This document shows, piece by piece, positions 51,235 to 53,336 of a stretch of DNA of 64,000 nt. The notes beneath the pieces are model-generated. The model had not been told where the DNA came from, did no database searches, and was given only the letters and a program-made list of their open reading frames with translations. How positions within the stretch are numbered: position 1 is the first letter of the stretch; each line of letters begins with the position of its first letter. This DNA is from Ectothiorhodospira shaposhnikovii (GTDB lineage Bacteria; Pseudomonadota; Gammaproteobacteria; Ectothiorhodospirales; Ectothiorhodospiraceae): assembly GCF_022227765.1 (NCBI RefSeq), contig NZ_JAJMLZ010000002.1, forward strand, positions 372,001 through 436,000, given 5' to 3'. A program made the position numbers and the translations under genes.

Positions 51235-52193
51235 GTCAGGCGATCCGCCAGCGCCTGGGTTGCCCTCACCAGCGCCTGGGCAATCCCCGGCTCACCGGCG
51301 GAATGGCCGGCGTCCGGCACGATGGTGAACTCCGCCCGGGGCCAGGCATGGTGCAGAGCCCAGGCCTGATCCACCGGGCACACCACGTCATAACGTCCAT
51401 GGACGATGTAACCCGGAATCTCCGCCAGACGATGGGCGTCGCGCAGTAGCTGCCCCGGCGCCAGGAAGGCCTGATGCCGGAAATAATGGCACTCGATGCG
51501 GGCCAGACTCAGGGCGGTGAAAGGGTTCTGAAAATGCCCCACCACGGCGGGATTGGTGATCAGGGTCGCCGTGCGCCCTTCCCACTCCGACCAGGCCTTG
51601 GCGGCCGCCATGCGGGCCACCTCGTCCGCACCGGTCAGACGCTGGTAATAGGCGGCCACCATGTCACTGCGCTCCGCTTCGGGAATCGGCGTCAGATAGT
51701 CGGCCCAGTAGTCGGGGAACAGGCGTCCGGCGCCCTCCTGGTAGAACCATCGGATATCCTCGTCACGGCACAGGAAGATGCCCCGCAACACCATGCCCAG
51801 CACCCGCTCGGGATGGGTCTGCGCATAGGCCAGGGCCAGGGTGGAACCCCAGGAACCGCCGAACAGGACCCAGCGATCGATCCCGAGCGACTCGCGAATG
51901 CGCTCCATGTCCGCCACCAGATCCCAGGTGGTGTTGCTTTCCAGGCAGGCATGCGGCGTGGAACGTCCGCACCCCCGCTGATCAAACAACACGATGCGAT
52001 AACGGTTGGGGTCGAAGAAACGCCGATGCCAGGGTTCACACCCGGAGCCGGGTCCCCCATGAAGAAACACCACCGGCAAACCCGCTTCAGACCCGCACTC
52101 TTCCAGATAGAGACGATGGGGAGGATCCACATCCAGATGCCGGGTGCGATAGGGGCGAATGTCGGGGAACAGGGAATCAACGGACATGGGCAC
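51231..52193 (-). CDS. pip: Proline iminopeptidase
   Basis: The 320-residue alpha/beta-hydrolase has the oxyanion motif HGGPGSGC, nucleophile Ser in GGSWGS, and Asp/His in the C-terminal GRYDVVCP and DAGHS. It releases N-terminal proline from peptides. The start is 52193 or the third codon at 52187. A GacA-type palindrome lies 40 bp upstream in the shared divergent region. Confidence 0.95.
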   Translation of the reverse strand: MPMSVDSLFPDIRPYRTRHLDVDPPHRLYLEECGSEAGLPVVFLHGGPGSGCEPWHRRFFDPNRYRIVLFDQRGCGRSTPHACLESNTTWDLVADMERIRESLGIDRWVLFGGSWGSTLALAYAQTHPERVLGMVLRGIFLCRDEDIRWFYQEGAGRLFPDYWADYLTPIPEAERSDMVAAYYQRLTGADEVARMAAAKAWSEWEGRTATLITNPAVVGHFQNPFTALSLARIECHYFRHQAFLAPGQLLRDAHRLAEIPGYIVHGRYDVVCPVDQAWALHHAWPRAEFTIVPDAGHSAGEPGIAQALVRATQALADRLT

Positions 52194-52232
52194 AAACCTT
52201 CTCCGGGTTCAGAGGGAGGCTCAAGGCACGCG

Positions 52233-52250
52233 TGTAAGAAAATCCCTACA
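52233..52250. promoter_or_regulatory. Candidate GacA/UvrY-binding palindrome
   Basis: TGTAAG-AAAATC-CCTACA matches the GacA upstream activating sequence TGTAAG-N6-CTTACA at 11 of 12 defined positions. It is centred about 90 bp before the proposed start of the GGA-rich RNA. Promoters of csrB/rsmZ-type sRNAs carry such a box and usually have poor -35 hexamers, as here (only a TATACC -10-like box at 52322). Confidence 0.65.
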
Positions 52251-52332
52251 GGTTTTCCGCCCTGAACCTCGTTTTTCATGGCTTTTGGGGAGTGTTCGCC
52301 GCCCCCGCCATTGTGAAATCATATACCCATGG

Positions 52333-52487
52333 TGCACGAAGCGCCTCCCAGGGATCCTGGGTTGATGGGGTAAGGGATGTCTCCGGACCAGGCGTGGAAT
52401 GGATCCACCAGGCAGGCAGGGAGCGCCGCTTCAATCACCGGACCCGGGATGGTCTCGCTCCCACCAGGGATGGTGGGAGTTTTTTTT
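52333..52487 (+). ncRNA. Candidate CsrB/RsmZ-type CsrA-sequestering small RNA
   Basis: About 155 nt lie between a -10-like TATACC (52322-52327) and a strong intrinsic terminator. It contains ten GGA triplets (starting 52352, 52375, 52385, 52396, 52401, 52420, 52440, 52447, 52468, 52476). Four lie in loops of simple hairpins: CCCAG-GGATC-CTGGG, GTGG-AATGGAT-CCAC, GACC-CGGGAT-GGTC and the terminator loop AGGGAT. A 5'/3' stem (GAAGCG at 52338, CGCTTC at 52427) can close the domain. CsrA/RsmA binds GGA in hairpin loops, and a GacA-type box lies upstream. An alternative is a ttcA leader attenuator. Confidence 0.62.
52458..52487 (+). terminator. Intrinsic terminator just upstream of ttcA
   Basis: An 8-bp perfect stem CTCCCACC / GGTGGGAG with loop AGGGAT is followed by eight T residues. 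It ends 18 nt before the ttcA ATG, so transcripts from the upstream promoter should stop there unless ttcA depends on read-through. Confidence 0.92.
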
Positions 52488-52505
52488 CCCACGGAAAGAC
52501 TTGCC

Positions 52506-53336
52506 ATGGATTCCGCCCAGTGGGTATCTTCGGCGGCCATGTCCAGCCCGATTCAACCCCCTCGTTCCCTGATCCGGGATACCGGTCGCGCCATCGGCGA
52601 TTTCCGCATGATCCGGGACGGCGACCGCATTCTCCTTGGCCTGTCCGGCGGCAAGGACTCCCTGACCCTGCTGCACCTGTTGTTGTATTTCCGGCAACGG
52701 GCACCGGTTCGTTTCGAGGTCGGTGCCGTCACCATCGATCCCCAGACAGGTCTGACCGACAAACGCGCCCTGATCCCCTACCTCCAGGCACTGGGCGTAC
52801 CCTATGCCTATGTGAGCGAGCCTATCCTGGCGCGGGCCGAAAAGCACCTGGACAACCACTCCTACTGTTCCTTCTGCTCCCGCATGCGGCGGGGCCTGAT
52901 TTACCGCACGGCCCGGGAACAGGGCTACAACGTCATCGCCCTGGGACAGCACCTGGATGATCTGGCGGAGAGCTTTCTCATGAGCGCCTTCCACGGCGGC
53001 CGACTCAAGACCATGAAGGCCCATTACCGGATCGAGGCCGGAGACCTGCGCGTGATCAGACCTCTGGTCTACGCCCGGGAGCGGCGGATCCGCGACTTTG
53101 CACACAAGGCGGGACTGCCCATCATGGAGGAAAACTGCCCCACCCGATTCGGCAAACCCACCCAGCGGCCCCACATGAAGGCCCTGCTGGCCCGGGAGGA
53201 GCAGGACAATCCGGGACTGTTCAAGAGCCTGATCCGCACCCTGACGCCGCTCATGTCGGTGGGACTGGAGGATGTCCCCGACACCGCCGGGGCTCTTGCG
53301 AACGCCCCCCAGGCGGAATCGCCATGGAATTCCTGA
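52506..53336 (+). CDS. ttcA: tRNA 2-thiocytidine synthetase TtcA
   Basis: The 276-residue protein has the PP-loop SGGKDSLTLLHLLL, the iron-sulfur ligand pair CSFC in NHSYCSFCSRMRRG and the third Cys in EENCPTRFGKPTQR. It thiolates C32 of several tRNAs. The start at 52506 is chosen because in-frame starts further upstream (52377) would run through the terminator hairpin. Its 3' end overlaps the acyltransferase gene by 13 bp. Confidence 0.95.
   Translation: MDSAQWVSSAAMSSPIQPPRSLIRDTGRAIGDFRMIRDGDRILLGLSGGKDSLTLLHLLLYFRQRAPVRFEVGAVTIDPQTGLTDKRALIPYLQALGVPYAYVSEPILARAEKHLDNHSYCSFCSRMRRGLIYRTAREQGYNVIALGQHLDDLAESFLMSAFHGGRLKTMKAHYRIEAGDLRVIRPLVYARERRIRDFAHKAGLPIMEENCPTRFGKPTQRPHMKALLAREEQDNPGLFKSLIRTLTPLMSVGLEDVPDTAGALANAPQAESPWNS

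Follow-up and report, generated by a model that had tools for sequence, protein, structure and literature searches.

The gap between pip and ttcA in the 64,000-nt stretch of Ectothiorhodospira shaposhnikovii DNA analysed here (the window) raises the question of whether it encodes a small RNA of its own, able to titrate CsrA as a preliminary description had proposed, or belongs to ttcA as its leader. The upstream gene was identified as that of prolyl aminopeptidase (TIGR01249, 424 bits) and the downstream one by the TtcA model (215 of 272 bits), and the region between them is non-coding, since the lengths of the indels in the genus alignment are not multiples of three. Comparative analysis makes it very probable that positions 52331-52487 are a stand-alone sRNA gene of the Csr/Rsm type, activated by a GacA-like regulator and titrating CsrA, where transcription, activation and binding are what we infer from the DNA. 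The features of the locus are as follows:

52233..52250, + strand: inverted repeat TGTAAGAAAATCCCTACA of GacA/UvrY type, presumably the activator site (genome motif search, conservation and the UvrY consensus of PMC4682653)
52317..52328, + strand: promoter block AATCATATACCC, conserved and presumably the -10 region, with no -35 (nine-genome alignment)
52331..52487, + strand: candidate sRNA gene, predicted transcript of 157 nt with ten GGA (alignment, covariance-model matches and GGA counts)
52331..52345, + strand: 5' hairpin GGUGC-ACGAA-GCGCC (compensatory changes in four of five pairs)
52348..52360, + strand: hairpin CCAGG-GAU-CCUGG presenting GGA (local fold, conservation in the genus)
52394..52408, + strand: hairpin GUGGA-AUGGA-UCCAC, whose loop GGA is not conserved (alignment)
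52415..52427, + strand: hairpin GGC-AGGGAGC-GCC presenting GGA (local fold, arrangement shared by G006, G007 and G009)
52430..52439, + strand: unpaired linker UUCAAUCACC, nearly invariant (16 sequences and the box-first finds)
52441..52454, + strand: penultimate hairpin GACC-CGGGAU-GGUC presenting GGA (alignments of relatives)
52457..52487, + strand: intrinsic terminator with a 10-bp stem, a GGGA loop and a U8 tail (terminator prediction, compensatory change in eight of nine pairs)
52501..52530, + strand: predicted ttcA promoter TTGCCA-N18-TATCTT, boundary of the RNA unit (promoter prediction and genus alignment)

Ten GGA triplets had been claimed for a candidate of about 155 nt, several times more than expected from its composition, and recounting gave the same ten within 52331-52487. 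Single-base shuffles hold 3.6 on average and none of 1000 reached ten, which agrees with the claim as far as base composition is concerned (2.8-fold), whereas over dinucleotide content the excess is only 1.7-fold (5.7 on average in dinucleotide shuffles, p = 0.011). The longer motif ANGGA occurs five times in the same interval compared to 1.0 in dinucleotide shuffles, a five-fold excess (p = 0.001). The terminator with a GGA in its loop was found as described, its run of eight T lying at 52480-52487. The transcript had been taken to start at 52333; in the alignment the AATCATA(T)TACCC block common to the genus moves the predicted start two bases upstream, near 52331. No sigma-70 consensus promoter for the RNA was found, the sole one in 52190-52560 being that of ttcA, in agreement with the promoter of activator-dependent type, with a weak -10 and no -35, proposed before.

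The GacA-type box expected upstream of the RNA was located at 52233-52250 and differs by one base from the UvrY/GacA consensus TGTAAG-N6-CTTACA. In E. coli the 18-nt UvrY site TGTAAGN6CTTACA was obtained by footprinting and ChIP-exo (PMC4682653), and an inverted-repeat consensus for GacA/UvrY is also given in PMC8523701. Within the 3.34-Mb genome (G000), the box is the single exact match to TGTARG-N6-CYTACA, and this single-site pattern suggests that the sRNA gene is the chief target of the GacA-like regulator, as in E. coli (PMC4682653). The box is present at all nine Ectothiorhodospira loci aligned, in the form TGTARGAAAATCCYTACA, and is single-copy in six of the nine genomes of the genus that bear it. 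Additional exact boxes in G006, G007 and G009 precede ordinary protein-coding frames (L077, L078, L080, L081, L083 and L084), and the regulon of these genomes may have grown beyond the sRNA. As second sRNA copies these extra boxes were rejected, most of them preceding ordinary open frames and not GGA-rich RNAs.

The RNA, the box and the promoter block are kept in eight of the nine other genomes of the genus. The nine aligned loci share the box, the AATCATA(T)-CCC block, the 5' hairpin, the linker, which reads TTCAATCACC in this alignment, and the terminator. In a four-helix structure of the nine RNAs, 98.9% of the cells were paired and 12 showed double changes, and none of 500 shuffles was as high. 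An RNA shortened to 84 nt was observed in G003 (L104, G003:C22:12000-15500), where the middle is lost and another gene replaces ttcA; it retains the box, the linker, the terminator and a compensated 5' hairpin, GGUAC-GGGAA-GUACC. In G005 GacA and CsrA are present and the RNA is absent; the 2.0 Mb of this genome, scanned in pieces, gave no pip, ttcA or exact box, and no model match above 14.3 bits. An intergenic region of G005 (L194 6680-6850, G005:C1:306680-306850) carries the motifs GACACGGAUGUC, GACAUGGAAGUC and GGACAAGGAUGUCC and by these looks like an unrelated CsrB-type RNA.

A covariance model (R1) built on the nine RNAs of the genus, with the box excluded, matched seven genomes outside it, namely G172 (65 bits), G191 (51 bits) and all five g4 genomes (43-51 bits). 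The match is preceded by an exact box at a distance of 81-135 nt in G172, G191, G012, G015 and G017, and by a one-mismatch box in G019 and G021; these boxes are independent support, because the box was absent from the model. Across the sixteen RNAs 98.8% of the cells are paired, and there are 50 double-change cells compared to 12.1 in shuffles and 6-11 with slid partners, in a fitted alignment that is hence biased toward the structure. Compensatory changes occur in eight of nine terminator pairs and in four of five pairs of the 5' hairpin, and the GGA of the terminator loop is invariant in all sixteen sequences. Alignment with relatives had been proposed as a check for covariation, and it revealed a GGA-loop structure that is conserved and covaries both in the genus and beyond.

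When 369 genomes of the class were searched with a wider model (R2), 19 loci outside the genus were detected at E < 1e-3. Of these, 11 have an exact box at most 320 nt upstream (vs. 4 of 1120 background stretches). Weak R2 matches without a box, such as L162, are likely due to chance. A DNA match in G079 (E 7.5e-5) was discarded as a chance hit inside a cheA-like coding region. When 47 genomes of the family were searched with the box only and the finds in genera g2, g4 and g5 were followed, G010 and G013 yielded the order pip-box-RNA-ttcA, with a linker-like motif, an AGGA hairpin and a terminator in both RNAs, that of G013 being short and with few GGA. No box was found at the ttcA loci of Thioalkalivibrio.

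At least four GGA had been placed in hairpin loops. The free minimum-energy fold gives this less support, as it is long-range, does not exceed shuffles in stability (z = -0.52) and leaves three GGA mostly unpaired; if pairs may span no more than 40 nt, six of the ten are mainly unpaired. Comparison of relatives makes the claim firm for the terminator loop and for the penultimate loop, whose GGA is constant across the genus and nearly all relatives outside it while the stem varies. The loop of the 5' hairpin reads AGGA in several relatives outside Ectothiorhodospira. The sequence of the hairpin at 52348-52360 is kept in five members of the genus, and G006, G007 and G009 keep its GGA with different flanks; its pairing varies between sub-clades and it was omitted from the covariance model. 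A long-range CCUGG-CCAGG pairing predicted by RNAalifold is invariant within the genus and so gives no covariation signal.

The protein partners of such an RNA were sought in the same genome. CsrA is encoded in G000 (gene at G000:C5:54656, 90.9 bits), is near-identical over 57 residues to CsrA 1y00 and also matches the RsmE entries 2jpp and 2mf0-2mfh. The top UvrY/GacA match of the genome (200 vs. 61.5 bits) is a regulator with receiver and LuxR-type domains, encoded at G000:C22:176675-177391 and under the NCBI curated cut-off (200 of 280 bits), and a BarA-like kinase with Cache-like, HAMP, HisKA, HATPase, receiver and HPt domains is likewise under its own (418 of 890 bits). Orthologues of the GacA-like regulator (214 bits or more across the gene) are present in all 17 genomes of g1, g2, g4 and g5, and the box in 16 of these 17 (in two by one mismatch), the exception being G005. 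Neither a GacA-like orthologue nor an exact box was found in the 30 genomes of g3 (Thioalkalivibrio-type), 25 of which retain CsrA, so that the Csr system of g3 would appear to lack the Gac branch. For the co-occurrence of GacA and box, Fisher's p is 1e-11, a value that does not represent many independent tests, as the absence in g3 may be a single loss.

The covarying GGA-loop structure, the box, the terminator and the independence from ttcA thus support the earlier reading of the locus as a CsrA-titrating sRNA. Several GGA and ANGGA, with loop GGA kept in the terminator and penultimate hairpins of relatives, a covarying structure with a terminator and an upstream GacA/UvrY repeat are all found here, in a genome that encodes CsrA and, below the NCBI equivalog cut-offs, GacA-like and BarA-like proteins. 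In the mechanism that we propose, the BarA/GacS-like kinase would phosphorylate the GacA/UvrY-like regulator, which would then bind the inverted repeat at 52233-52250 and activate the promoter, in which the -10 is poor and a -35 is lacking. The 157-nt RNA would end at its own terminator, and its GGA in hairpin loops and single-stranded stretches would capture CsrA dimers, which would in this way be drawn off their mRNA targets. The RNA would then be a global post-transcriptional switch of the organism, and would supply the RNA component of the Gac/Csr cascade missing so far in the purple sulfur genus Ectothiorhodospira.

An ordinary ttcA leader had been named as the finding that would speak against this proposal, and in its most specific form the RNA would be an attenuator, the terminator of which governs read-through into ttcA. 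The RNA is indeed directly upstream of ttcA and in the same direction, an order retained in several genera, with 51 nt between its terminator and the likely start of ttcA. However, the conserved terminator precedes a separate and also conserved ttcA promoter, and the RNA is retained without ttcA as the next gene in G003, G017, G019 and G021 (the downstream context of G019 and G021 was judged from their DNA match to that of G017), and in another neighbourhood in G191. Because ttcA has its own promoter past the terminator and is absent downstream in these relatives, the RNA is not expected to be its leader: it is not always upstream of ttcA, nor would ttcA, with a predicted promoter of its own, depend on that of the RNA. 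As an attenuator would moreover leave the GacA-type site and the constant loop GGA unexplained, we consider this reading very improbable. Of two candidate starts for ttcA, at 52506 and at the ATG 52539, only the latter is conserved in the genus alignment, and ttcA more likely starts there. From that start and the TTGCCA-N18-TATCTT promoter, a nearly leaderless ttcA mRNA would result.

What CsrA titration fails to explain is the linker UUCAAUCACC, whose primary sequence is better conserved than any other part of the RNA and is the same, or almost the same, in 16 sequences, well outside the genus; no description of a conserved non-GGA element in Csr/Rsm RNAs was found in the accessible literature. 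A dual-function Gac RNA, with GGA loops that titrate CsrA and UUCAAUCACC serving a second task (for example mRNA pairing, or as the site of a dedicated protein for decay or binding), is conceivable but rather unlikely. Far less probable still is a GacA-controlled sRNA acting mainly by base pairing through this linker, with CsrA binding minor or absent, that is, RgsA-like and not RsmY/Z-like. The linker is unpaired, as base pairing would have it, and RgsA provides a precedent, showing that control by Gac does not oblige an sRNA to titrate RsmA (PMC2375449). Nevertheless, RgsA has one GGA against the ten found here, GGA is fixed in two loops while the stems change, and the several GGA motifs that sequestration requires (PMC2375449) are present in the Ectothiorhodospira RNA. 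As for a chance richness in GGA of a conserved, unrelated intergenic terminator region, it would fit the 1.7-fold excess over dinucleotide shuffles (p = 0.011) and the unremarkable folding energy of the single sequence, but it leaves covariation, invariant loop GGA and box linkage across many genera without explanation, and can hardly be credited.

The stand-alone, CsrA-titrating sRNA was finally compared with known families. No Rfam family was matched at threshold by the window RNA or by 36 related loci, the sole signal from the Csr/Rsm clan being RsmV (12.6 of 100 bits). The check proposed earlier with the covariance models of CsrB, CsrC, RsmX, RsmY and RsmZ was negative, in that none of them recognised the RNA, which is outside these families as Rfam defines them and would be of the same functional kind only. 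A genome-wide search with RF00166 (RsmZ) gave two overlapping matches on opposite strands at 65 kb of G000:C2 (33.2 and 28.5 bits, cut-off 44), dismissed as chance. The RNA is thus probably a new CsrA-titrating sRNA of a known functional kind, from a family absent from Rfam. For this family, which spans several gammaproteobacterial families, a covariance model is now available, and the RNA can be annotated where genomes show an empty region.

With RsmX, RsmY and RsmZ of Pseudomonas (RF00166 and relatives) it shares a small size, multiple loop GGA, an intrinsic terminator and an upstream GacA box, together with the kinase, regulator and CsrA encoded in the genome; it differs in falling below the Rfam threshold, in its own order of hairpins, in the UUCAAUCACC linker, in its pip-ttcA site and in being present in one copy in G000. 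At 157 nt it is shorter than E. coli CsrB and, unlike CsrB and CsrC, has no Rfam match. It has in common with these two the upstream UvrY-type 18-bp inverted repeat (PMC4682653), CsrA and a GGA-rich RNA. RsmV (RF04320) aligns with the Ectothiorhodospira RNA at the GGA loop of the terminator and over a CAGGGAG stretch, but the score of 12.6 bits is below its gathering score of 100. The Pseudomonas RNA RgsA is also small and Gac-dependent, but it has one GGA motif and its Gac control is indirect (PMC2375449). In the open literature searched, no paper was found that links a CsrB-type RNA to Ectothiorhodospira, Halorhodospira or purple sulfur bacteria, and the RNA may have been listed earlier, for example in the sequence-based prediction cited by PMC5568370. 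In g4 genomes, another GGA-rich RNA, which also has the linker, lies behind a second box (L141 637, L142 674 and L146 201, all on the - strand), and the two RNAs would form a sibling pair, like RsmY/RsmZ.
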